Origin: Gloeocapsa sp. PCC 7428
Lineage (GTDB): Bacteria > Cyanobacteriota > Cyanobacteriia > Cyanobacteriales > Chroococcidiopsidaceae
Reading direction: 5' to 3'
NCBI RefSeq assembly: GCF_000317555.1
Contig: NC_019745.1
Span: 124,001 to 188,000, forward strand
DNA: 64,000 nucleotides
The notes under the pieces are model-generated. The model was given only the letters and a program-made list of their open reading frames with translations, ran no database searches and was not told the DNA's origin. Both the position numbers and the translations under genes were made by a program. Shown here in pieces: positions 3,632 through 27,632 of this stretch (position 1 is its first letter; the number at the start of each line of letters is the position of its first letter).

Positions 3632-4088
3632 TTAGAAAAAACAACACAATATCAAGCCTTACGGCGGTTGACTAGCATTGTGAGCTAGCTGATACATAGT
3701 CGGTGTAAAATACAACTACGGCGTAACCAGAAAGTTATATTTGTAGACGTGTAACTTAAACTCATATGTCTAGGTAAACCGCCGCGCATACAACATAGAT
3801 CATTGACTAAGCGCGTGTACAGCGCTCCTGTCGTAGGATTGTACCTGCTGGTTAGCATAGCAAGTAGCACAGCTGATATAAATAGACAAGAACAGGGCTA
3901 ATAGGCTTAGGCACAAAACAGCAATCTAGATCTATCTAAGGCTCGATACTTTGCTAAGTGCCAATGAGTAATAAATATATAAATTTAGTTACTAAGTAAT
4001 AGCTAAGACTACAGCATAGACATATTAGCTGCAACAATCTCAAAATGAGAAGATAATTTATTCGCAATGCTCACTAGGAGTTAAATTT
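3632..4088. other. Intergenic region before the PRC/lipid-kinase gene
   Basis: There are 457 bases without a credible gene; the short minus-strand frames here have no family resemblance. The only clear signal is the ribosome-binding site TAGGAG at 4076-4081, eight bases before the next ATG. Confidence 0.55.
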
Positions 4089-5693
4089 ATGCCCCTTAAA
4101 AAGATTAAGGATTTTGCTCCAAGTTATCTTGAATCTTTTAATGGTAAAGATATCATTGGTTTTAATGTTTATACAGATAAGACACGAGAAAAAGTTGGCT
4201 ACATAAAAGATATTTTAGTAGATGAGACAGGATACTTTCGCTATTTGGTTGTTGACTTTGGCTTGTGGATATTTAACAAGCAAGTTATGCTTCCAGTAGG
4301 ATATTTGCGTATTGATTATGATGCCGAGCGAGTTTATGTCTTAGAGTTAGAGCGCAAACAAGTAGAAAGTCTTCCTGCTTACAATGACCAAGTAGCAGTA
4401 GATAGAGAATATGAGGAGAACCTACGAGCAGCGTATGCACAGCTAGCAATCAACATCGAATCTGTGCAATTAGAAGAAGTTCCCCAAATTACGCCCACTG
4501 AACCAGAAGAAGCTAACTATAATTATGCACAAGCAGCAGATTTATATGAATTAAATGACCGCAATCATCGAGTTATTAAAGAGTATCAAGATAGACTAAT
4601 TGCTAAAAATCAAACACGTCAGGAAGCAATACCTAAGCAACGCATCACAGAAAACCAAATAAGCGAACAAGTCATTGTTTCTTCTGCGTCTAGCAATCAA
4701 GTTATCAGCACTCAAAGACAGACTCGTTCAGCTTGCTTGATTTTTAATCCTGTAGCAGGTCAATCTGATTCCGAACAAGACTTAGCAACAATTAGAAGTA
4801 TGCTAGAGCCTGAATTTGAGCTTGATATTCGGATGACGACTCCTGAGAAAGACGCTGACGAAATTGCCAAAGAAGCTGTGGAACAAGGCGCACAAATTAT
4901 TATCGCATCTGGGGGAGATGGTACGCTTTCTGCGGCGGCAGAAGCTGTAGTCGGGACGGGGATTCCGTTGGGTGTGATCTCGCGCGGGACAGCAAATGCT
5001 TTTGCAACGGCTTTAGGCATTCCGGCGACAATTCCCGCAGCTTGTCAAACAATATTAGATGGTAAAACCCGCGTCGTCGATGCTGCGTATTGTAATGGTA
5101 GACCAATGGTGTTACTCGCAGGAGTAGGATTTGAGGCGGAAACCGTCGAACGTGCCGATCGCGAAGCAAAAAATCGCTTTGGTATGCTTGCATATGTTTT
5201 AGCAGGTATTCAAGAGTTACGTAATTTAGAGTCTTTTGAAACTCGAATTGAAACCGAAGATAAAGTGATAACCTTAAATGCAGCCGCAGTAACGGTCGCG
5301 AATGCTGCGCCACCTACCTCTGTACTAGCGCAAGGACCAGCAGAATTATTGATTGATGATGGTTTACTCGATGTTACAATCGTTGCACCGACAAATACAA
5401 TGAGCGCGATCGCGGCTGCGTATAACCTCTTACAATCTGCTTACAGTGGCGAAGTTGCGAATAGACCTGATACCGGTTTCTTACGAGCGAGAAGTATTAA
5501 AATTTCCACCAATCCACCCCAAAAAGTAGTTGTAGATGGCGAATTGGTTGGCAATACACCCATTGACGTTGAGTGTGTACCTGGAGGATTAACAATTATT
5601 GTCCCGACGGTTCCTGAAGAAGGCGCTACAGAGAAATTAGCAGGATTACCTAATCTGCGAGTAGAGTCCAAAGAACCGCCAGCAACGAGTTGA
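4089..5693 (+). CDS. PRC-barrel domain fused to a diacylglycerol/lipid kinase domain
   Basis: This is a 534-residue two-domain protein. Residues about 8-95 form a PRC-barrel (photosynthetic reaction-centre-type beta-barrel) with the GKDIIGF start and a VLPVGYL-like strand. A polar, glutamine-rich linker covers about 100-212. Residues about 213-515 form a YegS/DagK-type lipid kinase, with NPVAG at 220-224 and the nucleotide-binding GGDGT at 275-279, and a later glycine-rich GVGFEAE segment. It should phosphorylate a lipid or sphingoid substrate at the membrane. A stand-alone paralogue of the kinase half lies at 55050-55961. The start ATG follows a good TAGGAG site. Confidence 0.85.
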   Translation: MPLKKIKDFAPSYLESFNGKDIIGFNVYTDKTREKVGYIKDILVDETGYFRYLVVDFGLWIFNKQVMLPVGYLRIDYDAERVYVLELERKQVESLPAYNDQVAVDREYEENLRAAYAQLAINIESVQLEEVPQITPTEPEEANYNYAQAADLYELNDRNHRVIKEYQDRLIAKNQTRQEAIPKQRITENQISEQVIVSSASSNQVISTQRQTRSACLIFNPVAGQSDSEQDLATIRSMLEPEFELDIRMTTPEKDADEIAKEAVEQGAQIIIASGGDGTLSAAAEAVVGTGIPLGVISRGTANAFATALGIPATIPAACQTILDGKTRVVDAAYCNGRPMVLLAGVGFEAETVERADREAKNRFGMLAYVLAGIQELRNLESFETRIETEDKVITLNAAAVTVANAAPPTSVLAQGPAELLIDDGLLDVTIVAPTNTMSAIAAAYNLLQSAYSGEVANRPDTGFLRARSIKISTNPPQKVVVDGELVGNTPIDVECVPGGLTIIVPTVPEEGATEKLAGLPNLRVESKEPPATS

Positions 5694-6019
5694 GGCAAAT
5701 CATGGTAAATTCAATACGCGATCGCCACTGAGCAATCGCCGAATCTCCACATTTTTGAGATCTTGGGCGTAAGTTGGAATCTTGAGCTAGCATATCGTTT
5801 TGTTGCATCAAGAATATGCAGAATGATAGAGACAGCAGGCTGTCGTCTGAAGGTAATCTATGCTTGGCTCAAATTTACTGAGCTATCCATGCTGCGTCAG
5901 CTTCAATTGCAGTGAAGTCGAGCGGAACATAGCTTAAATCATAAAACCAAGCTTAACGCTACTAAATTACGCTGAGTAAGAACCGCGACAAAATAAACAC
6001 GACAAGCGAGATACTGTTT
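5694..6019. other. Intergenic region before the phosphoesterase gene
   Basis: These 326 bases lie between two plus-strand genes. It holds one HIP1-like motif and a short imperfect hairpin (ACAGC-AGG-CTGT, near 5830). No gene or clear promoter could be identified. Confidence 0.5.
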
Positions 6020-7582
6020 ATGGAATTTGTGTCCGACCCGCCGATATCCGTGAAAATTGAGAAAATGAAACAACGGGTACGGTGGCAAGACCCAGTTATA
6101 TTTGAACGACAAATTGACCAAACGCGGTTTGTGCTTGCATCTGAGGAGGAAGATAGTCCAGAATTTTCATTTCTAGTTATTGGCGATAGTGGTTCAGGAA
6201 AACATCGCAAACACAATCCGCAACGTCAGATCGCGAAAAAAATGTTGGAGCATCGCGATCGCGCCCGCTTTATCCTGCATACAGGTGATGTTGTTTATTT
6301 AGTCGGGTCAAGCGAATACTATCCAAAAAACTTTATCGAGCCTTACAAAGAATTTATTGTCGGGGGCGAAAAACAAAAAAAAATTGCTTACGACGAGATG
6401 GTGTTTAAAACACCAATTTTGCCCGTATTAGGCAATCACGACTACTATGACCTGCCATTAATTTATGGTTTAATGGGAGGCGTAACGTTGCCCTTGCGGC
6501 GAATATTGAAGCTACGATTAGATTTAGATATTGGTTGGCATGGTTCTAATCAAGGCAAAGCTTACGCAAAAGCCTTTATTGACTACTTAAAGGCGTTTGA
6601 TACCGATGCAGAATTGCAGCGCCATCTAGATAAACATTACACGGCGACAACGAGTACCGGTCGCTGTTTGATTTATAAACCAGGAGAGTTTACCCGACTG
6701 CCTTACCGATATTACACTTTTCGTAGCGGTGGTATTGATTTTTTTGCTTTAGACTCGAATACATTCAACGCTCCATCACCTCTACCCACTACAGGCGAAG
6801 GCGCAGCTTATCGGCGGACTTTAGAAGGTCGTATTTATGAATTAGAGCAAGAAAAGCTGCAAATCATGGAGGAAGCAAGCAAGCTCAATGCGAATTCACC
6901 GGAAGAAGCTGAAAGACTTGACGATCTAGAAGCAAAGTTAGAACAAGTCGAGGAAGTCAAACTTGACATTGATAAGCAATTAGTAGCAGATGAGACTACA
7001 GTTACTGATTTTGAGCAATTGACGTGGCTGCGACAAAGACTCATTGAATCGTGGAACACGCCAGAAGTGCGCGGTAGAGTTGTGTATTTGCATCATCCAC
7101 CTTATGTTACTGAGTCAACAAAGTGGTATCAAGCGCAAACTTTAGCAGTACGTCGTAATCTCCGTTGGGTACTTGATGAAGTTGCCAAAGAACTAGGCGG
7201 GCTACCACAGCAACATCCAATTGTCGATTTAGTTTTGACAGGTCATGCACATTGCTTAGAGCATCTGTCTACAGGAGATACCGGACACGCTGATTCTTAT
7301 ATCAATTGGATTATTTGTGGTGGAAGTGGCTACAGCTTAAGACGACAGCGTAAAGAAGGCGCACAGCTACACGAAACCGTTGGTGATACTGAACGCGAAG
7401 TCGCGCGATCGCATCTCTATCTTGGTCGCAGCGGTCACGGTTCGCACAAACGACGACCCTATTCATTCCTACGCATCGATGTGAAAGCAGGCAATCCTGC
7501 TAAGTTTGTTGTTCAGCCTTTTGTTGCGGAAAGATATCAACGCAAGTGGGTAGATCGCGAAATCGAGTCGTTTGTCATTTGA
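6020..7582 (+). CDS. Calcineurin-like metallophosphoesterase
   Basis: This is a cytoplasmic-looking protein of up to 520 residues with all five phosphoesterase blocks in order: VIGDSGSG, HTGDVVY, GNHDYYD, LHHPPY and TGHAHCLEH, which supply the Asp, Asn and His ligands of a di-metal centre. A long charged, probably coiled-coil insertion (about 270-330, rich in Glu, Leu and Lys) separates the halves. Substrate is unknown. The first ATG (6020) has no good ribosome site; the ATG at 6065 (MKQRVRWQDP) is an equally plausible start. The gene ends eight bases from the convergent FIST gene. Confidence 0.85.
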   Translation: MEFVSDPPISVKIEKMKQRVRWQDPVIFERQIDQTRFVLASEEEDSPEFSFLVIGDSGSGKHRKHNPQRQIAKKMLEHRDRARFILHTGDVVYLVGSSEYYPKNFIEPYKEFIVGGEKQKKIAYDEMVFKTPILPVLGNHDYYDLPLIYGLMGGVTLPLRRILKLRLDLDIGWHGSNQGKAYAKAFIDYLKAFDTDAELQRHLDKHYTATTSTGRCLIYKPGEFTRLPYRYYTFRSGGIDFFALDSNTFNAPSPLPTTGEGAAYRRTLEGRIYELEQEKLQIMEEASKLNANSPEEAERLDDLEAKLEQVEEVKLDIDKQLVADETTVTDFEQLTWLRQRLIESWNTPEVRGRVVYLHHPPYVTESTKWYQAQTLAVRRNLRWVLDEVAKELGGLPQQHPIVDLVLTGHAHCLEHLSTGDTGHADSYINWIICGGSGYSLRRQRKEGAQLHETVGDTEREVARSHLYLGRSGHGSHKRRPYSFLRIDVKAGNPAKFVVQPFVAERYQRKWVDREIESFVI

Positions 7583-7590
7583 GACTCAAA

Positions 7591-8793
7591 TTAAGGTTGG
7601 CGACAAATTGCAAAGACTGAGGTATACCCATGCAAAAAAGTACTCCCGCCTACAGGACCGATTTCCCCATTCCCAAAAAAACCGCCCATGGGAATATTTG
7701 GCATATAACTACTAAATAACTGCGAATCAAAATTAGGTTTACCATAGAGCATTTCGCCACGCCCTAAACAAGAAAACATCAGCGCCCCAGTAGGTGATAC
7801 ATGAGAATGCGTCTGCTGATAACGTTGTAGCAACCATTCCAAATCATCCGCTGAAGTTTCTGCATCTCGTAGGTGAAACTGAATGCGCTGTCCAGGGCGA
7901 ACTAAATCCGCAACGGCGATCGCTCCTACTTTCGGATCGACTCCTAATAAATTACGAATCAAAAAATCTCCATGTTCTAGATTCTGCTTAAACTCGTCGC
8001 GCACGACTCCGATAAACAACGAATGTTCAGCTAATTGCCGATCCGCATCGCTTAAACTCGAAATTAAATCGCGCAACACTTCTAAAGGCGGTTGTTCTTC
8101 CAAAGCAAGTAAAATGTTACGTTCAGAAGCGCTGACGCGGTAAGGCTCGCCAATCGGTCGGCATCCTTGCGCCACAATCGTATCTAGAACAATATTGCCG
8201 CTCAAGGCAACGCCCACAGTTCCTGAACGGTATAGCTTATCATTGCAGAATAAACCAATTCGCCCAGGAGTTTGACTACCACTTGCTAACCCGCCTACCG
8301 TAATCGAACCTGGGTAAGCATAATCTATGCCTTGCAATAAATCATTTACGCCTGAAGAAAAAGGATCGGATAGCAAAATAAATTGGGGTTGCTCAGCAGG
8401 TGAAACACCAAATAAATCTACCCACGCTTTCGGCGGACTATCAGGATCGGGGAGTTGCTCTGCCGCAATATGAAAAGGTGTAACTGTAACTCCTGGTAGT
8501 TGCGCTAAACTCAGACTTAATGCAGGTACGCCCTCAAACTCCTGCACTGCGTGTTGATTCGTCCCAATAATCCCCCCACCACCACAACCAATCAGAACTT
8601 TGATATTGCGTAGCTTTTCTTGTAACAACGGAAGCAGGCGGGGATATTCGCTTGTAAAGGCAGCAGAAATAAAAACTAACCCAAGATCGGCGGGTGACTG
8701 TAACAAAGCAGAAGCTTTATCGACAACTTCTGCGACGGCTGCTTCGAGCGAAGCACGAGTTGATACGGCGTTTGCCCACTGCATGAGTGCCAT
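7591..8793 (-). CDS. FIST N- and C-domain sensory protein
   Basis: The protein has 400 residues and no membrane segments. The N-terminal half (VLIGCGGGGIIG and a following SLAQLPGV stretch) fits FIST_N, and the C-terminal half (GALMFSCLGRGEMLYG, then GGFFGNGEIGPVGG) fits FIST_C. FIST domains are thought to bind small ligands such as amino acids and usually sit beside signalling domains. Here FIST stands alone, so any signalling partner is encoded elsewhere. It lies 147 bases downstream of the 2-epimerase gene on the same strand and could be its operon partner. Confidence 0.85.
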   Translation of the reverse strand: MALMQWANAVSTRASLEAAVAEVVDKASALLQSPADLGLVFISAAFTSEYPRLLPLLQEKLRNIKVLIGCGGGGIIGTNQHAVQEFEGVPALSLSLAQLPGVTVTPFHIAAEQLPDPDSPPKAWVDLFGVSPAEQPQFILLSDPFSSGVNDLLQGIDYAYPGSITVGGLASGSQTPGRIGLFCNDKLYRSGTVGVALSGNIVLDTIVAQGCRPIGEPYRVSASERNILLALEEQPPLEVLRDLISSLSDADRQLAEHSLFIGVVRDEFKQNLEHGDFLIRNLLGVDPKVGAIAVADLVRPGQRIQFHLRDAETSADDLEWLLQRYQQTHSHVSPTGALMFSCLGRGEMLYGKPNFDSQLFSSYMPNIPMGGFFGNGEIGPVGGSTFLHGYTSVFAICRQP

Positions 8794-8940
8794 AAGTTAT
8801 ATCATCACTCCTCTTTTAGGCTGAGGTTTTTTCTATTTTCGGTGCTAACGGGGACGAAAAGCATCTAACTGAAGTTAATTTAGCGCTTGATTAAACGCAA
8901 TCCGCGAATTGACGATTTATAACGCGTTTATGGGTGAGCC

Positions 8941-10065
8941 TTACCCAAAGGCTTGCTCATCCAGATATTCTGTTACAATTTGCAAGATTCGCTCGGCTGC
9001 GTGACCGTCACCAAAAGGATTAATCGCAGTTGCCATAGCTTGATAAGCATCGGCGTTACTTAACAGTACGCTAGCTGTGGTAACAATTTGTGCTGGATCA
9101 GTTCCTACTAATTTGGCAGTCCCCGCCGCGATCGCTTCGGGTCTTTCGGTTGTTTCGCGCAGGACTAGCACTGGTTTTCCTAATGAAGGCGCTTCTTCTT
9201 GCAATCCTCCTGAATCGGTCAGCAGTAAGTGCGATCGCGCAATTGCTCCGACCAACTCGGCATAATCTAATGGTTCAGTTAAAAACACGCGCGGGTGATG
9301 ACTCAACGCCGCTTGCAACGGTTCGCGCACAATTGGATTGCGATGCAACGGTAAAAGCAAAGCTGTGTCAGGAAACTCCTCTAAGATTTGTAAAAATCCT
9401 TCTGCAATTTTCAGGAGGGGTTCTCCCCAATTTTCACGCCGATGCACCGTTGCTAATAAAACACGGTATTTTCCCCACTCCAAACCAGGTATATCGCACG
9501 CAGGCTGGCTTTGGGCAACTGATAACAGCGCATCAATGACTGTATTACCCGTTTGATGAATTTTTCCTAAGACTCCGGATCGTTGCAAATTTTCTACCGC
9601 CAGCGTCGTGGGAGCAAAGTGTAATTGAGTAAGCTGCGATATCAACCGCCGATTGGCTTCTTCGGGATAAGGATTAAAAACATCATCGGTACGTAAACCT
9701 GCTTCTACATGACCTACGGGAATTTTTTGATAAAACGCTGCCAAAGCTGCGGCAAAAGCCGTCGTCGTATCGCCTTGAACTAAGACTAGTTGTGGCTGGA
9801 GTTGCTCAAATAAGGTTTCTAATCCTTGTAAGCTGCGACAAGTAATATCAGTAAGCGTTTGCTTTGGTTGCATAATTGCGAGATTTTGGTTCGCTTCGAG
9901 GTCAAATAGCTGCATGACTTGTGCAACCATTTCAATGTGTTGACCTGTTAATATCACTTGCGTGTCAAAGCGCGGCGATCGCTGAAAAACTTGAATGACC
10001 GGAGCCATTTTAATTGCTTCCGGTCGCGTACCCAAAATAATGCAGATCTTGTTTACCTTTGCCAT
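8941..10065 (-). CDS. wecB: UDP-N-acetylglucosamine 2-epimerase (non-hydrolysing)
   Basis: This 374-residue enzyme interconverts UDP-GlcNAc and UDP-ManNAc, feeding ManNAc into cell-surface polysaccharide. Family marks are the N-terminal LGTRPEAIKMAP, the QGDTTT segment, GHVEAGLRT, PEEANRR, ATVHRRENWG and LTDSGGLQEEA; together they give the Rossmann GT-B fold and the catalytic acidic and His residues. The length is normal. No Shine-Dalgarno precedes the ATG. No other polysaccharide genes are adjacent. The FIST gene follows on the same strand. Confidence 0.95.
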   Translation of the reverse strand: MAKVNKICIILGTRPEAIKMAPVIQVFQRSPRFDTQVILTGQHIEMVAQVMQLFDLEANQNLAIMQPKQTLTDITCRSLQGLETLFEQLQPQLVLVQGDTTTAFAAALAAFYQKIPVGHVEAGLRTDDVFNPYPEEANRRLISQLTQLHFAPTTLAVENLQRSGVLGKIHQTGNTVIDALLSVAQSQPACDIPGLEWGKYRVLLATVHRRENWGEPLLKIAEGFLQILEEFPDTALLLPLHRNPIVREPLQAALSHHPRVFLTEPLDYAELVGAIARSHLLLTDSGGLQEEAPSLGKPVLVLRETTERPEAIAAGTAKLVGTDPAQIVTTASVLLSNADAYQAMATAINPFGDGHAAERILQIVTEYLDEQAFG

Positions 10066-19928: not shown

Positions 19929-19992
19929 GGTAACTGGTAATAGGTAATTGGTAAATATCTTTTTTCTCATTACCCATTACCAATTACCAACC
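19929..19992. repeat. Degenerate heptad repeat (GGTAATTGG type) forming a hairpin
   Basis: Repeats of GGTAAY-TGG appear on the left, and the complementary TTACCAATTACC series on the right, around an AT-rich loop with a TTTTTT run. This is a short tandemly repeated repetitive (STRR-like) element. It lies between the convergent ileS and parA genes and the right arm runs into the parA stop. A similar element lies at 44202-44276. Confidence 0.7.
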
Positions 19993-20918
19993 TTAGTATT
20001 AACTAATTGTGTTTCCTGCTGATTACTCCCAGCTAGTTGCAGTTTCTGTAAAAACTCTTGCGTTATTTGAGTAAATGCTTTAGCCCCTGCTGATTGCGGA
20101 TTTGTCATGACAACAGGCATAAAACTATCAACTGCTTTAGCAACATTGACATCAGTTGGTATTTGAGTCTTGAAAATTTGTGCTGCGTCAAAATCCTCAT
20201 TAATTCGCTGCATCACTTGTTTGTAGTATCTGCCTGTAATTAAATTACCTGACATTGTAAAGACAATTCCCAACAATTTAATATCTAAATTCACCTCAGA
20301 TGCATGGCTTTCTTTCAGTTGAGCAATCCGTCTTTCTAATAACTGAATACCTACTATTGATAACGGCTCAGATTTTGCAGGTAGAACATAGAAATTACTC
20401 GCAGCAAGCGCACTGCGGGTCATCAAATTATAACCAGGTGCGCAGTCGAGAATAATAAAATCGTAATTTTCGAGAACTGGCTCTAAAATTTGTTTAACTA
20501 ATCTTCTTTCAAAGCGATTCCAAACTGTTTCAAAATCAAGTCGATCTACTTCAAAGGCTTCTTCATGCAGCATTTCAGAAACCACAAATTCATCGTATAG
20601 CTCGATATCACCTGGTAATAAATCTAGATTGGCAAGCTTGCACGCATTGTAGTGAATTGCTTCTTTCACACTAATCTTTGAGCGTGTTTCTGGCTGAATA
20701 GCTTGGTTGATTAAATATTTCAAAGTCCGCTTTGTTTTTCGGTATTTAGCGAAATCTGTTGGCGACATTATACTCAAAGTAGCACTAATTTGAGTATCTA
20801 AATCGAAAATAAGAACTTTTTTACCATGATCTTTGGCGAGTGAAGTCGCTAAATTGACACTTAGCGTTGTTTTTCCTACACCACCTTTCATATTTGCTGT
20901 TGCAATGATATAAGCCAT
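19977..20918 (-). CDS. ParA/Soj-type partition ATPase
   Basis: The protein has 313 residues. It shows the deviant Walker A KGGVGKTT at 11-18, the A' motif FDLDTQISAT and the Walker B region FIILDCAPG, all in the ParA/MinD superfamily arrangement. Such proteins dimerise with ATP on DNA and move cargo. It has no adjacent parB on its own strand, but a ParA/ParB-like pair lies 900 bases away across azoR on the other strand. The length is a little above a minimal ParA. It may belong to the accessory patch 20-24 kb. Cargo unknown. Confidence 0.85.
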   Translation of the reverse strand: MAYIIATANMKGGVGKTTLSVNLATSLAKDHGKKVLIFDLDTQISATLSIMSPTDFAKYRKTKRTLKYLINQAIQPETRSKISVKEAIHYNACKLANLDLLPGDIELYDEFVVSEMLHEEAFEVDRLDFETVWNRFERRLVKQILEPVLENYDFIILDCAPGYNLMTRSALAASNFYVLPAKSEPLSIVGIQLLERRIAQLKESHASEVNLDIKLLGIVFTMSGNLITGRYYKQVMQRINEDFDAAQIFKTQIPTDVNVAKAVDSFMPVVMTNPQSAGAKAFTQITQEFLQKLQLAGSNQQETQLVNTKVGNW

Positions 20919-21061: not shown

Positions 21062-21682
21062 ATGGCGCATATTCTGCATATTGATTCTAGTCCTCGTGGT
21101 GAACGCTCTTTTTCGCGTAAACTTTCTTATGAGTTCGTTACAGCTTGGAAAAATGCCCATCCAGAGGATACACTGACTTACCGCGATTTGGGGAAAAACC
21201 CTGTACCTCATGTTGATGAAGGATGGATTGCGGCTGCATTTACACCCCCAGAAGCGCGTACCCCCGAACTCAACGCAGCAATTAAGCTTTCAGATGAACT
21301 AGTAGATGAATTTCTTGCAGCCGATCGCTACGTGTTCGGTATCCCAATGTACAACTTTAGCGTACCTTCAACTTTTAAAGCCTATATTGACCAAATTGTT
21401 CGCGTCAATCGTACTTTTGCGGTTACTGATCAAGGATACGCGGGTTTAGTTCACGGAAAGAAAATGCTCATTGTGACTGCTAGCGGTGGTAGCTACAGAT
21501 CGGGAACGCCAGCAGAACAGTATGATTACCTCAAGCCTTTCTTGCAGGCTGTGTTTGGCTTAGTTGGTATTACTGACATTACGTTTGTGCAAGCTGATAA
21601 TCTTAGCAGCGGTGATGACGCACGTCAGGAATCTTTGAACGAAGCCCATGCGATGATTGAAGAGTTAGTCGCTAACTGGTGA
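21062..21682 (+). CDS. azoR: FMN-dependent NADH-azoreductase
   Basis: This 206-residue flavodoxin-fold enzyme is in the AzoR/NQO family; it reduces quinones and azo bonds using NADH and protects against thiol stress. Marks are the N-terminal HIDSSPRGERSFSR FMN loop, FGIPMYNFSVPSTFKAYIDQI and the TASGGSYRSGTP segment. The length is normal. It sits between two ParA genes, with its promoter region shared with the minus-strand parA. It is probably an unrelated neighbour, but co-transfer with the ParA genes cannot be excluded. Confidence 0.92.
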   Translation: MAHILHIDSSPRGERSFSRKLSYEFVTAWKNAHPEDTLTYRDLGKNPVPHVDEGWIAAAFTPPEARTPELNAAIKLSDELVDEFLAADRYVFGIPMYNFSVPSTFKAYIDQIVRVNRTFAVTDQGYAGLVHGKKMLIVTASGGSYRSGTPAEQYDYLKPFLQAVFGLVGITDITFVQADNLSSGDDARQESLNEAHAMIEELVANW

Positions 21683-21826
21683 TGCGAAGCGCGATCGCAC
21701 ATCATACTTGGTGCGATCGCTTACAAAAATCCGTAATTTCCCTGACCTAGAACAAAAATATTTGTCCGAAAATCGACTTTAGAAGTTTTTTTTTACAACG
21801 TCTTGGTTTAGTCAAGGTAAAAGAAG

Positions 21827-23215
21827 TTGCCTTTTTCCCCAGAAAATTGTCGTAACGAAAGCGAAGTAGAAAGCAAGCTCATTGTACAGTATCTGCTTCC
21901 AGCATTAGGCTACTCACCAGACACTTGGTATCAAGAAGTTGCTTTTGGCAGTATTCGTTTAGACTTTCTAGCTTTCGCTACACAAGTAGTTCCGTTTGTT
22001 TTGAATGACTACTCTTCTTTAAGCGTTGTCATGGAGGCAAAGCATCCTAATCAAAACTTGAACAATCATGTGCGCCGCCTCAAGTGGTACTTAACTAGTT
22101 TAAATGTTGCTTATGGACTCCTAACTAATGGCAAACAACTGAGAATCTATCAAAGCATTGATGATAATATTCAGTTAGTATTTCAATGTTCAGGTCACGA
22201 TATTGAAAGTAGAATTGAAGAAATTCAAGCTCTTATAGGTAGAGAAAGTTTAAGAAAAAAATACACTCAAAAGAAGATAATTTCAGTTACAACTAATCCT
22301 AAGTCAGACTCTGAGAATAAGAAGCAGAATAACATGAAAGCTATTGCAATTTACCATAACAAAGGTGGTGTCGGGAAAACCACAGTTGCCGTCAATCTAG
22401 CTGCCGCACTAAGAAAAAAAGGTAAAAGGATACTCTTAATAGATTTAGATTCGCAAGCAAACACTACTTTTGCCACTGGCTTAGTTAAGTTTCAATTTGA
22501 AGAAGAGGATGACTTAAAGGAGCGAAACGTATACCACTTACTCGAATCAGGTGATTATAACTTTATTCCTGATATTGCTCGTAAATCTCATTTTTTCAAT
22601 AGTCCTGAAATTGATGTTGTTCCTTCACACATTACGTTAATTGAGCACCAAGATCAACTAAATAAAATTTTAGCAAGTAGAAGGAGGTTAGTTGTCAAAC
22701 TAAAACAAGTAGCAGATACCTATGATTTTGTCATTATCGATACACCACCATCTAGAGATTTATATGCAGAAGTAGCCTTGATTGCTGCTGACTACTTAAT
22801 AATTCCTTCAGATTTGAAACCGTTCGCTAATCAAGGTTTGCCGACTGTAAAAAAGTTTATCAAAGAGGTTAATGAATCTAGAGAAGCTGTAGGTAAGCCG
22901 CATCTAATTCTTTTAGGTGTTCTTCCCTCCAAAATTGCTACTAATTCCAAGTTTCTACAGTATACTTTTCCTAAACAGAGGAGTGTTATTCCAGAAAAAT
23001 ATGAATTACCTCTAATGGAAACAGTAATTTATGATAGGACAGCTTTATCAGAATGCACTAATCAAACTGTGCAAATAGGAGAATTAGAGATTCCTAACCC
23101 CAAATCAATCTTTGACTTTGCTGATGGTAAACCCTCTTCTAATTCTGCTCAAGTTGCTACTAGTGAATTTGAGCTTTTAGCTGGAGAAGTTTTACAAAAA
23201 ATGGAGTTGAAATGA
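21827..23215 (+). CDS. Restriction-endonuclease-like domain fused to a ParA ATPase
   Basis: This 462-residue protein has two parts. Residues about 8-112 look like the type I restriction R-subunit N-domain (HsdR_N), a PD-(D/E)XK nuclease fold: an N-terminal acidic helix, Asp46 in RLDFLAF, Glu70-Ala-Lys72 as the ExK motif, and the LLTNGKQLRIYQ strand. Residues 170-462 are a ParA ATPase with KGGVGKT at 179-185, LIDLDSQANTT and FVIIDTPPS. The catalytic residues of both halves look intact. The start is TTG. An internal ATG at 22334 could make a free ParA. It overlaps the next gene by four bases (ATGA), implying translational coupling. Confidence 0.8.
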   Translation: MPFSPENCRNESEVESKLIVQYLLPALGYSPDTWYQEVAFGSIRLDFLAFATQVVPFVLNDYSSLSVVMEAKHPNQNLNNHVRRLKWYLTSLNVAYGLLTNGKQLRIYQSIDDNIQLVFQCSGHDIESRIEEIQALIGRESLRKKYTQKKIISVTTNPKSDSENKKQNNMKAIAIYHNKGGVGKTTVAVNLAAALRKKGKRILLIDLDSQANTTFATGLVKFQFEEEDDLKERNVYHLLESGDYNFIPDIARKSHFFNSPEIDVVPSHITLIEHQDQLNKILASRRRLVVKLKQVADTYDFVIIDTPPSRDLYAEVALIAADYLIIPSDLKPFANQGLPTVKKFIKEVNESREAVGKPHLILLGVLPSKIATNSKFLQYTFPKQRSVIPEKYELPLMETVIYDRTALSECTNQTVQIGELEIPNPKSIFDFADGKPSSNSAQVATSEFELLAGEVLQKMELK

Positions 23216-23934
23216 TTTCATTTTCACTTGTAGATGTTAAAAATATCATTTCGGAAAATCCACGTTCAGATTTTTCTGAGGATACATTAGATTATTTAGC
23301 AGAAATAATTCTTAAAACAGGAGGACTGATCAAGCCATTAGTTGTGAAAGAAACAGGAGAAGACACTTATTTAGTAATTGATGGGCACTTAGAATACTAC
23401 GCTGCTGTTAAAGCTAGAGAAAAAGATCCTCGTAAAGGCGAAATGGTTAATGCCTTTGTGATTTCACCTAAAGATGAAAAACTAGTATTACAGCAAGCCG
23501 AAGCATTTCGAGAATATCAAACTGTCAATCATCCAGCAACCACAACTGAGAATAACACAACAAAATTAGAACAACGTATAACAAATATTGAATTGCGGTT
23601 AGAAAAGCACCTCAGTCAACTGCGGGAAGAGCGTACAAAAGAGAAACAAGAGTTGGAGATAAAATTAAAGGAATTTAAAGATAAAATTCCCAAGTTAATT
23701 GAACCTTTAACAGCTTTTAATACTTTAAACGCTTCTGAGTTGTTACTTATACTTCAAAATGTGGGAATATCTAGTAAAACAGCCACTAAGTTAGTTGAAG
23801 CTATACAGAAAGAACGTACAAAGAAAGAGTTTACATCTGTAGTTGAAGTTGTTAAACGAATCACAGGATTAAGCGAGAAAAGAATGCTTAGTATTATTGA
23901 CAATTTATCTCGTACTCTAGTTTATAAAGATTAA
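23212..23934 (+). CDS. ParB-like protein with coiled coil and helix-hairpin-helix tail
   Basis: The protein has 240 residues. Residues about 4-85 resemble the ParB/Srx N-domain, with the nucleotide-site-like VIDGHLEYYAAVKA at 55-68. Residues about 115-160 are a charged heptad-patterned coiled coil. Residues about 170-235 read like ComEA-type helix-hairpin-helix repeats (LNASELLLILQNVGIS, then FTSVVEVVKRITGLSEK), expected to bind DNA without sequence preference. The classical ParB helix-turn-helix seems absent. It overlaps the nuclease-ParA gene by ATGA and should be its partner. The target (a centromere-like site or foreign DNA) is not known. I do not recall this architecture as described. 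Confidence 0.7.
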   Translation: MISFSLVDVKNIISENPRSDFSEDTLDYLAEIILKTGGLIKPLVVKETGEDTYLVIDGHLEYYAAVKAREKDPRKGEMVNAFVISPKDEKLVLQQAEAFREYQTVNHPATTTENNTTKLEQRITNIELRLEKHLSQLREERTKEKQELEIKLKEFKDKIPKLIEPLTAFNTLNASELLLILQNVGISSKTATKLVEAIQKERTKKEFTSVVEVVKRITGLSEKRMLSIIDNLSRTLVYKD

Positions 23935-24125
23935 TTTGTAGTGCCAGCAGTGAAAGAAACTACAGAGCAGTTAACTATGAAATTTAAGTTAGTATGAACA
24001 GTCAGGGAATTTGAGTGTAAATTAGTAAAATTTGTATAAATATCGGGCACTTTAAAAAAGAATAAAAGCATAATTTGCTACAATTCAGACTAAAGTGTGT
24101 GTAGCAAATTAGATAGATAGCCCAG

Positions 24126-26438
24126 ATGCCGCAACGTCCACATAATAAAGTTCTACGACGCTATCAAAGACGTCGATATATGGATAGAGGGCTACATCTT
24201 TCTAGTAAAAATGCTAAAAGAAACTGGGTCGGTACTTTAATAGGAATTACAGTACTTTTGAGTGCAGGCGGTGTAGTCGCAAGTGGTGCGTGGTTGAGTT
24301 ATATTCTGTTTTTTAACCCAAATGCGATCGCATCCTTAAATCAATTCTTACCGCCGTGGGCGCAGCTACCATCGAGTCAAGAACCAACACAAACGCTGAC
24401 ACAAATTACAGCCGAGTTAAGCCGACAGGGAAAAATTGCCGGAGAACCGCTACCGTTAGAAGTTAACGCTAATTCACAACCAGCGTCTGTTATTTTACCT
24501 GTGCGATCGCAAAATCAAATTGTCGAATTACGCGTGTATCGCATTACAGACGCTAGAAACCTTCTTAATCAGCCAAGTCGTGAAGTTCACTATCAATTTA
24601 TCACTCAAGTTGATGTCACTGGACCCGAAGAATCATTTGTTGTCGCGCCTCTCATTAATCCAGAAACCGCAGATACAAGTTCAAATCGCCCGTTACCTGT
24701 AACCGAATTGCGTCGGTTCGACAATACCACCCCAACTCAAGGAATGTGGTTCTATCTTTGGGGACAACGACAACGAGGACACGCGATCGCTTACGGTCAA
24801 ATCGTCCACTACAACCCCGATCGCTCGTATCTGAGTTTAATGTTACCTTGGACAAGTCCGACTCAACCGCAATGGCAACAAGCGATCGCCGGAGGTTCTC
24901 CAGAATTAGTTATCGATCAAAGTGTTGATTTAGAACCACGATTGCAAGTTTATCAAGTTAAATCCGCAAATTTCATCTTCGATCCACTGCAACTAGAACC
25001 CATTTCCATCGCTGAACCAGCATTAGACAGTCGCGATTATCAAAATGCATTACTAATTGCGCAAAGTGGATTGTGGACACCCGCCGAGAAATGGTTGCAG
25101 TTTATTAAACAACAACGCCAAAAGCGTCAAGCGTGGTCAAGCGCAGCACAAGCACAACTCGATTTTATTCGACTACACGCCAAAAAAGCTCAAAAGCAAG
25201 CAAATCAAACTTGGGCAAGCCCTAGCCAACAAGTACTAACTTTGTTAATCGATGGACGTTGGGGAGAGGCGTTAAAAGTGTTTCAAGCTTCACCAACGAA
25301 TACACAAGAAATCGCCACACTCCTAGAAACGGATAATGGACGAATAGGAAATCGCGTCGAAGTTGCGTTACGTGTTAACCCTAATCGTACCGAAGTCAAA
25401 GCTTGGGGGGCGCTTCTCAAAGGCGCACAAGAAAGTAGAAGAAGCGCGATCGCCTGGTTAAAACAGCAACCACAAACAACTGCTGCTGATGTTGCTTATA
25501 TTCAAAGGTTCCTCAAACGTTTAGAAGGTGACTTTTCATCAAATAAAGTGACAACTTCTCACCTTAGTCGCTTTGTTGGTACAGCACAACAAATGACAAA
25601 AGTCAATCCTGCGCAATGGCTGCAAATCGATCAAACACCCTTACGAGTCACAAAAGAGCAAACATGGTATCAAATTCAACTTCATACTTATCACGACGGT
25701 AACACTTGGCAACACGCACCATTTAAGCTAGCACCATCAAAAACCGCAGCCCAATATTGGCAACAATTAGGTTTAAACTCAGATGCTGAAGTTCAAATCG
25801 TTTCCTGGCTACCAGGGGGACATCAGCAAATTGATCTCGCTGTTGTCAAAGCTGTGCAATTACAAGGTAGTACGCTGAAGCTATTAGCCGTATCGGATGC
25901 ATTTCCTTTATTCGATTCAGCCGCACGACAATTAGCACTTACGAAAACAACACTACAGTGGTTGCAACCGGAAACGATCGCTTTATCAGATTTAACACAA
26001 CAACCGCAGCCTATTGAAGTTGCAGAAATCTTACCTAAACTGTGGCAGGAGTTGCAACGCCGCACACCAAATCCGCAAAAGTCTGTCCCGAATATAGAGA
26101 AAATGCTACAGCAACTCGGAGAGTTACCCGTACAGTTAATCGACTTAACTGGTGATGGTACAGCAGAAGTGATAATGACAATCTCCCCACAGGAAATTGC
26201 GGCTGTTCATAATTTTGAGCCTAGCTTACTGCAAACGCAAAACAACGATTCGCGATCGCACACAATTATTTTTTCAGCTACTGGAAAGATAATTTACAAC
26301 GAGTTTAGCGGGGCTTCTGGACAGACTATGATTGCGATCGCCGAACTTGAAGAGGATCAACTTCCAGCATTACTCGTCGCTACTGGCAAAAACTATAACT
26401 TTAAACGCTGGTCTACTCAACACCAACGCTTCAATTAA
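24126..26438 (+). CDS. Large single-pass membrane protein of unknown function
   Basis: The protein has 770 residues. A very basic N-terminus (RRYQRRRYMDR) precedes one hydrophobic helix (about 36-62), giving a type II topology with a large exported or thylakoid-lumenal domain. The remainder is polar with many Gln and Thr, repeated LQVYQVK/LRVYRIT-like strands, and a final segment LTGDGTAEVIMT reminiscent of a calcium-binding FG-GAP loop. I recognise no enzyme motif. It looks like a conserved cyanobacterial hypothetical, but that is only an impression. The start ATG has no strong ribosome site. An insertion sequence sits directly downstream. Confidence 0.6.
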   Translation: MPQRPHNKVLRRYQRRRYMDRGLHLSSKNAKRNWVGTLIGITVLLSAGGVVASGAWLSYILFFNPNAIASLNQFLPPWAQLPSSQEPTQTLTQITAELSRQGKIAGEPLPLEVNANSQPASVILPVRSQNQIVELRVYRITDARNLLNQPSREVHYQFITQVDVTGPEESFVVAPLINPETADTSSNRPLPVTELRRFDNTTPTQGMWFYLWGQRQRGHAIAYGQIVHYNPDRSYLSLMLPWTSPTQPQWQQAIAGGSPELVIDQSVDLEPRLQVYQVKSANFIFDPLQLEPISIAEPALDSRDYQNALLIAQSGLWTPAEKWLQFIKQQRQKRQAWSSAAQAQLDFIRLHAKKAQKQANQTWASPSQQVLTLLIDGRWGEALKVFQASPTNTQEIATLLETDNGRIGNRVEVALRVNPNRTEVKAWGALLKGAQESRRSAIAWLKQQPQTTAADVAYIQRFLKRLEGDFSSNKVTTSHLSRFVGTAQQMTKVNPAQWLQIDQTPLRVTKEQTWYQIQLHTYHDGNTWQHAPFKLAPSKTAAQYWQQLGLNSDAEVQIVSWLPGGHQQIDLAVVKAVQLQGSTLKLLAVSDAFPLFDSAARQLALTKTTLQWLQPETIALSDLTQQPQPIEVAEILPKLWQELQRRTPNPQKSVPNIEKMLQQLGELPVQLIDLTGDGTAEVIMTISPQEIAAVHNFEPSLLQTQNNDSRSHTIIFSATGKIIYNEFSGASGQTMIAIAELEEDQLPALLVATGKNYNFKRWSTQHQRFN

Positions 26439-26471: not shown

Positions 26472-27632
26472 CAGGGCTGTTTCATTGTAGAGAGAGAAAG
26501 ACCTGCTCAAACTGGTTGGCAAGCTGGCGTTTCGCTGAGGCAATGGAATGAAAGCCCAAGCGTCTTGCCAAGGTGATGAAAAAGGTCCGCACGATTGACC
26601 AGTTGGCAGCAGCGCGCTTATCGAGGTAGGGTGCATCATCTTCACCCAGCGAGACATCCTTGATCCAATGCAAGCGATTCTCAATCCCCCAGTGCCCCTG
26701 CACCAGTTGAGCAAAGCCGTGCGCACAGGTGATCAAACTACTGATGTAATACTGCCGCTCGCAAAAGGGCTGCTGCGCTCGGGTGCCCGAGCGTTCGACG
26801 ACAATCAGCGACGCGAGTCCGCTCCAGTGCGATTGGAGCGCTTGCGACGGGCGATAGACCTGAACCCGACGATGCACGGTGCGACCATGACTGTGCTGTG
26901 TGTAGTCGTAGCAACTCCAGGGGTGACCCTGCTGCCAAGCTTGCTCAATCGCCTGGTACAGGTACGGTTGGTTCGCCTTGGCGCACACCAGATAGTCATC
27001 TCCCCGCTCGATGATTTGCGCTAAGGTTTTTTTTGACAGTGCAGTGCGTCCATCGTGACCACGACCCCATCAAGTGCCAGCGTTTTGAGCAACTGCTGCA
27101 CCACGGTTTGTTCACTGGTGTTGTGATTGTCCATCGCCTGCATCTGATAGACAAAGCCGCACTCGTGGCTGAAGAGCGAAACCACACTGACAAACGCTTG
27201 AGTGTTTTGGTGGCAGTCGCTGACCGTACTTTTGATGCTTTTGCCGTCAATGGCAACAACCGCAGCCGGATCGAGCGGGACAAACTGCTTTGCCCACTGC
27301 GAAAACACCGCCGCAAACTCAGCAAAATCAAGCTGCATCATCACCCGCCGCAGGGTGGAATAGGAGGGAAATTCCACTTCATCACTCAATCCGAGTCGCG
27401 CTCGCAGGGCATCGCCATAGTGCTTGATGAACTCAGACAAAGGACGATAGCCCCAGTAGCCGAGCATCGTTCCCATCAGAATAATCAGCAGCACCAGCGA
27501 GAGCGGGTGACGTTTGCCTCGCGGGGCGCGGGGGTCAGCAACAGTGTTCAGCAATGCCAGCAGTTCCATGTCGAGCTTGCCATGTGGTCAACCTCACTCT
27601 AATTTTTCTCCATGCACTTTGAAACAGCCCTG
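26472..27632 (-). mobile_element. ISAs1-family insertion sequence, 1161 bp
   Basis: It is bounded by inverted repeats beginning CAGGGCTGTTTCA (left) and ending TGAAACAGCCCTG-like (right), and flanked by a 12-bp direct duplication. One transposase is encoded on the minus strand but in two frames. The termini match the CAGGGCTG ends that I associate with the ISAs1 family. The conserved ends and duplication suggest a recent insertion. It lies in a non-coding palindrome between two convergent genes, so it broke no gene. Confidence 0.85.
26482..27569 (-). pseudogene. ISAs1-family DDE transposase, split by a frame change
   Basis: The N-terminal frame (27569-27021, 182 codons) has VADPRAPRGKRHPL and the first Asp in AIDGKSIK and the second in VTMDALHCQ. 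The C-terminal frame (26988-26482 and its 5' extension) has IENRLHWIKDVSLGED with the Glu. The join is at eight consecutive A residues (27028-27035); shifting one base back gives QKK-T-L-A-Q-I-I-E-R-G-D-D-Y, so a single-base change or -1 slippage restores one protein of about 362 residues. Intact ISAs1 transposases are usually a single frame, so a disabling indel is likely; programmed slippage is possible. Confidence 0.8.

Follow-up and report, generated by a model that had tools for sequence, protein, structure and literature searches.

ParABS partition systems combine a deviant-Walker ATPase, ParA (Soj), with a ParB-fold protein, ParB (Spo0J), encoded in the same operon. ATP-bound ParA dimers associate with DNA and are freed by partner-stimulated hydrolysis, ParB folds bind nucleotides, and HsdR_N domains cut DNA. 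Here we describe a two-gene unit in which such components are combined: a putative nuclease-ParA fusion and a ParB-like partner, encoded in a 64,000-nucleotide stretch of the cyanobacterium Gloeocapsa sp. PCC 7428 (contig NC_019745.1, positions 124,001 to 188,000; the whole stretch is called the window, and its numbering is used below). As in ParABS, a deviant-Walker ParA is encoded beside a ParB-fold protein in one operon, whereas the ParA carries an N-terminal nuclease domain and no helix-turn-helix (HTH) was detected in the partner.

The nuclease domain resembles that of HsdR of type I restriction enzymes (PF13588, PF04313) in sequence family and in its D...ExK residues; the ATPase attached to it is, however, ParA instead of a superfamily 2 (SF2) motor. 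With McdAB the pair shares a cyanobacterial ParA-type ATPase and a small partner, but here a nuclease is fused and the partner has a ParB/sulfiredoxin (Srx) fold, which McdB is not known to have. SspFGH/DndFGH, according to the covered parts of PMC8092258, are similar only to an alternative cassette described below, which encodes an ATPase and a protein with an FtsK-like C-terminus; the nuclease-ParA pair itself gave no Ssp or Dnd match in PADLOC, a comparison in which Ssp/Dnd modification genes were not sought. Finally, ParB-CTPase folds with extra domains acting outside chromosome segregation are described in the covered parts of PMC12704722, where fusions to HNH, UPF0020, DUF3850, DUF4417, methyltransferase, CBS, ASCH and MT-A70 are named; the main text of that paper uses 'hairpin' 0 times, and its covered parts name no nuclease-ParA partner. 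The architecture had been put forward as a candidate new system, and no description of a nuclease-ParA fusion was found among the papers listed by searches of the open-access (PubMed Central) literature. The single domains are known, while their combination, pairing and exchange behaviour appear new.

The fusion protein and its ParB-like partner

Both open reading frames (ORFs) were found where the initial annotation had placed them, with the stop of the first overlapping the start of the second through the sequence ATGA (Table 1), and most homologues in the alignment share the first residue of the fusion. The window is part of a 5.43-Mb contig in a five-contig, 5.88-Mb genome, and the pair is therefore on the main contig.

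The C-terminal half of the fusion matched AAA_31 of Pfam (1.6e-53), and residues K179, K184, D206 and D305 are identical in all 56 rows of the ParA alignment; ResIII matched weakly, and on the P-loop only (E 0.016). In a Foldseek search with the full-length model, the ParA half was recognisable (ParA, 4.8e-14) and McdA (6nop) was among the structural matches. The predicted ParA ATPase is complete and its deviant Walker motifs are intact, as had been read from KGGVGKT at residues 179-185. A second, distantly related ParA gene is located on the minus strand at 19977-20918, and across 69 loci there are 23 cases of an opposite-strand member of the ParA cluster upstream of the pair.

For the N-terminal half, an HsdR_N-type nuclease region with Asp46 and Glu70-x-Lys72 had been claimed. 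HSDR_N_2 matched the whole window protein with E 3.9e-4, which falls under the cut-off of Pfam, and phrog_4225 ('endonuclease') matched its N-terminal half (1.5e-5). In the family, all 47 N-domains scanned matched HSDR_N_2 (best 2.1e-9) and 45 of them HSDR_N, so the assignment, weak in the window sequence alone, is firm at the family level; the scan comprised 47 of 55 fusions, with L078 and L102, which have broken motifs, among the eight left out. D46, E70 and K72 are all kept in 53 of the 55 fusions and are thus not lost throughout the family. The exceptions are L078, in which the Asp is lost (D46 to G) and whose locus is crowded with the alternative AAA/FtsK-nuclease cassette, and L102, in which ExK is lost. 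A 56th long ORF, L093, contains ParA; its first half is not alignable, and it was excluded from the N-domain counts.

The ratio of nonsynonymous to synonymous substitution rates (dN/dS) was calculated for 21 close pairs, which share sequences and are not independent. For the nuclease half its median was 0.13 and its maximum 0.23 (18 pairs, the other 3 having no defined nuclease dS), and for the ATPase half the median was 0.106 (21 pairs). These values indicate purifying selection on the nuclease half, and together with the retention of D/E/K in 53/55 they led us to reject a decayed nuclease.

The partner contains ParB_N (4.1e-7 in the window protein; 60 of 65 family members), and Foldseek with its model returned ParB, Noc, SerK, SbnI and sulfiredoxin, the close matches covering the ParB N-domain, in line with the ParB/Srx-like N-domain first proposed. 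Pfam listed no HTH family for the window partner at E values of 1 or below, and the 25 families (of 37) listed for the 65 partners include none, which agrees with the claim that the usual ParB HTH is missing. The canonical ParB phosphate motif is GERRxRA. At this place the partner reads DGHLEYYAA, of which G58, Y62, Y63 and A64 are nearly invariant in the family; this is a further difference from ParABS. Another concerns the N-terminal ParA-binding motif described for ParB (PMC12704722, covered parts), for which the window partner, beginning directly in the ParB fold, has no room as judged by eye. A helix predicted at residues 116-158 of the model is probably a coiled coil. A short ParB_N-like ORF (104-aa frame) was also observed elsewhere on the same contig (G000:C1:322174-322398).

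The helix-hairpin-helix (HhH) tail suggested for the partner was weak in the window protein alone (HHH_5, E 0.12; DUF655, 0.045) and was sustained at the family level, with matches at E 0.01 or better among the 65 partners to DUF655 (13), HHH_6 (11) and HHH_3 (4; best 1.8e-14). At the same threshold, other partners matched Rho_N (15), SAP (10) or HeH (4); these counts overlap, as one protein can fall in several. Between congeners the tails seem to be of different types, being HhH-like in the window and Rho_N/SAP-like in G001 (classes read by eye from the sequences). The predicted partner tail is thus exchangeable, alternating between HhH and Rho_N/SAP/HeH modules.

Occurrence of the pair and exchange at its chromosomal slot

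The distribution of the ParA family was analyzed in 149 relatives, including the window's own genome, and in a phylum-wide sample of 386 genomes. At E 1e-40 or better it was present in 67 of the relatives, with nuclease-less and broken forms counted in, and in 57 genomes of the phylum sample: 49 in the order of the window, 7 more in its class, and 1 elsewhere, the last split in two frames. Seventy loci were examined, consisting of 12 from a genome-contig scan that reaches close relatives only (their genus names are all, presumably, cyanobacterial), 60 fetched regions and the window, minus three duplicates; L054, L061 and L107 were dropped since their fusions repeat those of L040, L045 and L043. 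The nuclease and ParA form a single ORF at 55 of these loci (fusions in later loci, L110 on, are outside this count), with the partner downstream in 54 of the 55. The sole fusion without a partner is L102, which also lost E70 and K72. In 57 of 65 ParA-partner loci the two genes are separated by -22 to +6 bases. In L052 (8560-11943), the fusion and partner stand in tandem with a nuclease-less ParA 63% identical to that of the window. The pair is patchy within genera, and broken copies were found in G016 (L108) and G136 (L092), as well as split frames in G386, G158 and G399.

The window pair is flanked on the left by a flavodoxin-fold gene and on the right by a gene for a 770-aa protein. Comparison with the congener G001 by blastn revealed flanks of 92-96% identity, while in 100-base windows the fusion was 51-74% and the partner 26-63% identical. 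The drop begins at ~21901, which places the left change point inside the nuclease coding region, and identity recovers by 24201-24301. In the ParA tree (a quick search with support from the Shimodaira-Hasegawa-like approximate likelihood ratio test, SH-aLRT, without bootstrap; L092, L108, L109 and L049 left out), the window and G001 belong to different clades split by a branch with 99% SH-aLRT. In a second congener, G002 (locus L160), DNA homology with the window ends at 21700 and restarts at 24258, and the slot is occupied by a cassette of three genes that run in the opposite direction. Judged from these comparisons, the pair sits in a slot of the chromosome, where it is exchanged horizontally. 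Transposase pieces (26482-27569; DDE_Tnp_1 and DDE_Tnp_1_assoc in separate ORFs) are located between the 770-aa gene and a threonine-synthase-like gene.

The products of the G002 cassette are a 275-aa protein with no match in Pfam, an AAA ATPase of 708 aa, and a protein of 883 aa in which 3'-5' exonuclease, PDDEXK_1 and FtsK domains are combined. In PADLOC, SspH matched the 883-aa protein (1.2e-65) and DndF the AAA ATPase (5.8e-4), and we regard the cassette as a candidate defence or DNA-processing system in its own right. It adjoins the 770-aa gene in six of the eight fusion-less relatives compared (G002, G004, G010, G014, G007 and G012), and none was detected in the stretches examined from the other two, G006 and G015; some cassettes have tandem AAA copies. 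The nuclease-ParA pair adjoins the same gene in G001, G005, G011 and G016, like in the window, and in G008 they are located on separate contigs.

Among the 149 relatives, the AAA gene of the cassette was present in 62, and one or other of the gene sets in 115, with neither in 34. Both occurred together in 14, compared to 27.9 expected (Fisher one-sided 2.7e-6). Since this test is inflated by relatedness, permutation within families (20,000 rounds) was used: the mean was 19.7 co-occurrences, and 14 or fewer were obtained in 0.22% of the rounds. Without six linked genomes, 8 co-occurrences were observed against a permutation mean of 13.7 (P 0.003). In the family of the window (19 genomes), the two gene sets were found in 6 and 9 genomes, and both together in 0.

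Pooling of the two samples gave 20 genomes with both. In 12 of them (G084, G094, G101, G126, G133, G142, G203, G305, G332, G399, G405 and G418) both lie on one stretch, within 4 kb in 11 and ~11 kb apart in G418. Two others (G041, G062) have full-length unlinked copies, and in G057, G059, G077, G099, G110 and G139 the fusion matches are nuclease-less, broken, truncated or partial. FtsK remnants, comprising the last 179-287 residues at 78-80% identity, were identified upstream of the fusion, at a distance of 134-534 bases, in L039, L044, L050 and L051, and the 275-aa cassette gene stands directly downstream in L045 and L059. These flanking fragments put the pair at, or in the position of, the FtsK-nuclease gene of the cassette, in the opposite direction.

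Table 1. Features of the nuclease-ParA locus, its flanks and the alternative cassette (positions refer to the window unless a locus is named).
Feature	Position	Strand	Basis and remarks
Nuclease-ParA fusion	21827..23215	+	462 aa, TTG start; window ORF list, alignment of homologues
HsdR_N-type PD-(D/E)XK domain (putative)	21848..22240	+	fusion residues 8-138; family profile matches
Codons D46; E70; K72	21962-21964; 22034-22036; 22040-22042	+	D/E/K alignment
ParA ATPase (predicted)	22334..23206	+	fusion residues 170-460; AAA_31, Foldseek
Deviant Walker A KGGVGKT	22361-22381	+	fusion residues 179-185
ParB/Srx-fold partner	23212..23934	+	240 aa, ATG start; ParB_N, model and Foldseek, locus pairing
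ParB/sulfiredoxin-fold domain of partner	23215..23469	+	residues ~2-86
Long helix, probable coiled coil of partner	23557..23685	+	residues 116-158; predicted helix
Helix-hairpin-helix-like tail of partner	23731..23928	+	residues 174-239; weak alone, family-level support
Exchangeable slot	21701..24257	.	blastn against congener G002, locus L160
Left flank, flavodoxin-fold azoreductase-like gene, outside the module	21062..21682	+	Flavodoxin_2, 2.1e-50
Right flank, conserved 770-aa protein, outside the module	24126..26438	+	no Pfam match at E 0.01
AAA/FtsK three-gene cassette	L160:1150-6742		equivalents in L161, L162, L163, L165, L166

Plasmids, viruses and defence models

In a plasmid collection, none of the best 5000 records covers 80% of the fusion. 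The N-domain alone matched 14 records, annotated as HsdR-type/type I restriction, N-6 DNA methylase or DUF5655, and none was named ParA. The fusion was not found in viral contigs, and in a phage collection its N-domain matched a single record, a hypothetical protein, over 48 residues; a phage gene was rejected on these grounds.

The ParB/Srx domain of the partner did have viral counterparts. A viral contig, L146, contains at 7986-8291 a 101-aa ORF with 37% identity to this domain (ParB_N, 5.3e-7). The ORF follows one that resembles ThyX; portal- and amidase-like ORFs were also read by eye on this contig, and the 16.5 kb of it examined gave no match to either half of the fusion, ParA or nuclease. 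In Anabaena phage A-4L (L180), a segment at 8001-8174, inside the tail protein gene 3969-9122, is 47% identical to the same domain. This region of the partner also has a match in PDB entry 9k3a, to a tail protein of 1717 residues. That a viral ParB-like domain might serve as a decoy is speculation.

PADLOC 2.0.0 did not assign the fusion to any defence model: outside matches of its generic P-loop (to stretches of PDC-M28B and mad8), only a weak Cas4b match was obtained (E 0.022). Matches of the partner to Cas6b2 (0.0032) and PD-T4-6 (0.0081) cover its coiled-coil and tail part and were not taken as membership of a defence model. Among the recurrent neighbours of the 69 loci, neither a methylase nor a carboxysome gene was spotted by eye.

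Possible functions of the nuclease-ParA pair

We consider the pair to be a horizontally exchanged chromosomal two-gene module in which ParA would control a PD-(D/E)XK nuclease serving in DNA surveillance or in defence against DNA that is foreign or aberrant, and assign this reading a probability of about 0.5. With its motifs intact, the ParA half would, as is a property of its family, bind ATP, dimerise and coat DNA without sequence preference. Such ATP-dependent dimerisation could pair two nuclease domains and so couple cutting to the ATP cycle. The partner may load on particular DNA and stimulate or restrain the ATPase, thereby controlling the site and timing of nuclease licensing; with its ParB/Srx fold, coiled coil and exchangeable DNA-binding tail, it is possibly a nucleotide switch. 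The initial annotation had left a choice between DNA surveillance, defence and element maintenance. Surveillance or defence is favoured by the swapping at the slot and the under-representation of the pair together with the SspH-like cassette, whereas element maintenance is unlikely, given the main-chromosome location of the pair and its absence from the plasmid records searched.

A more elaborate proposal is advanced only tentatively, and we lean somewhat against it: that the pair represents a new class of DNA defence or surveillance system, in which ParA dynamics and a ParB-fold nucleotide switch with exchangeable tails would license the nuclease against non-nucleoid DNA, the SspFGH-like cassette would be an equivalent exchanged at the same loci, and the phage ParB-like domain would act as a decoy.

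Several observations weigh against a role in surveillance or defence. The neighbourhood of the pair is housekeeping-like, with ileS-like and threonine-synthase-like genes (named by eye) near 14 of the 69 loci each, and besides the fusion and partner no gene family lies near more than 14. This lack of a recurrent third gene, as well as the presence of ParA in place of an SF2 motor, also sets the pair apart from type I restriction-modification. Neighbours were scanned with PADLOC at 1e-10, using 140 genes of the 246 selected from 53 loci (proteins >900 aa were among those excluded). Among the 25 of 54 families listed, the top one (SspH/mad8) matched just 4 of the 140 genes, followed by PD-T4-6, mad6 and MkoA with 3 genes each. 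A survey of this kind had been proposed to look for association with plasmids or defence islands: the pair was not found among the plasmid records searched, and the 140 neighbours gave no signs of defence islands, no control neighbourhood having been scanned, so that a defence island is unsupported.

Some lineages have the ParA and not the nuclease. ParA without the nuclease domain, with the partner kept, was found in L090, L091, L094, L095, L098, L099, L100 and L101, the last being very divergent, and without the partner in L096, L097 and L109, the last being a truncated match. At least four changes between nuclease-bearing and nuclease-less ParA are forced on the tree by its starred branches, and the occurrence of nuclease-less pairs in several lineages implies that the pair can persist without the cutter. 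The nuclease proposed for residues 8-112 is supported by sequence family, and its fold was not confirmed by structure: a PDB profile search retrieved no nuclease structure, and in the fusion model the nuclease half is poor, with a predicted local distance difference test (pLDDT) score <50 at residues 32-65. In addition, the depletion of joint occurrences is limited to the relatives sample. Phylum-wide, both gene sets co-occurred in 9 of 386 genomes compared to 6.6 expected, and mutual exclusion at this scale was therefore not seen; all 45 AAA matches of the phylum sample are inside the order of the window.

The strongest competing explanation, though we consider it improbable, is chromosome upkeep, in which a nucleoid ParA would position the nuclease on DNA ends, unresolved copies or taken-up DNA and the AAA/FtsK cassette would do the same job. 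It would fit the chromosomal location near housekeeping-type genes, the presence of one cassette or the other in 115 of 149 relatives, the FtsK and 3'-5' exonuclease domains, which suit DNA processing, and the HhH, SAP and Rho_N tails, which suit unspecific nucleic-acid binding. However, 34 relatives have neither cassette, and patchiness within genera, broken copies and horizontal swaps are unusual for housekeeping; it is these features, together with the SspH-like nature of the alternative, that favour surveillance or defence over upkeep.

The overlap of the two genes and their horizontal movement would also be expected of a selfish nuclease/antidote module holding its locus, with a fusion that is toxic unless restrained by the partner. 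The only partner-less fusion (L102) has a broken ExK, and the other cassette crowds the locus of the fusion with D46 changed to G (L078). L102 is nevertheless a single case, ParA would be an elaborate toxin carrier, the ParB-like fold and DNA-binding tail suggest a DNA target, and nuclease-less pairs persist, all of which makes this explanation distinctly less probable than upkeep.

We think it very improbable that the HsdR_N-like half is a non-catalytic DNA-binding domain of a system positioning some cargo. Nuclease-less forms do exist, and ParA/MinD ATPases position diverse cargos (PMC10241942, covered parts), but the retention of D46, E70 and K72 in 53 of 55 fusions and the purifying selection speak against it. 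Ordinary plasmid or element partition by ParAB with an accidental N-terminal fusion, suggested by ParA and a ParB-fold protein sharing an operon, was rejected on the plasmid-collection searches (no 80% cover of the fusion in the best 5000 records, no N-domain record named ParA), and the pair, which lies on a 5.43-Mb contig, has no HTH listed for its partner and keeps its nuclease residues in 53/55, does not occur only as plasmid partition genes.

To our knowledge, ParA ATPases are known for cargo movement and not for nuclease steering. A widespread and conserved nuclease-ParA/ParB-like pair would, if it works as proposed, connect the positioning of DNA to its destruction, and would offer the cell a means of distinguishing nucleoid DNA from other DNA that needs no modification mark. 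That the pair is exchanged at the same loci for an unrelated nuclease/translocase cassette provides both a functional hypothesis and natural pairs of strains.

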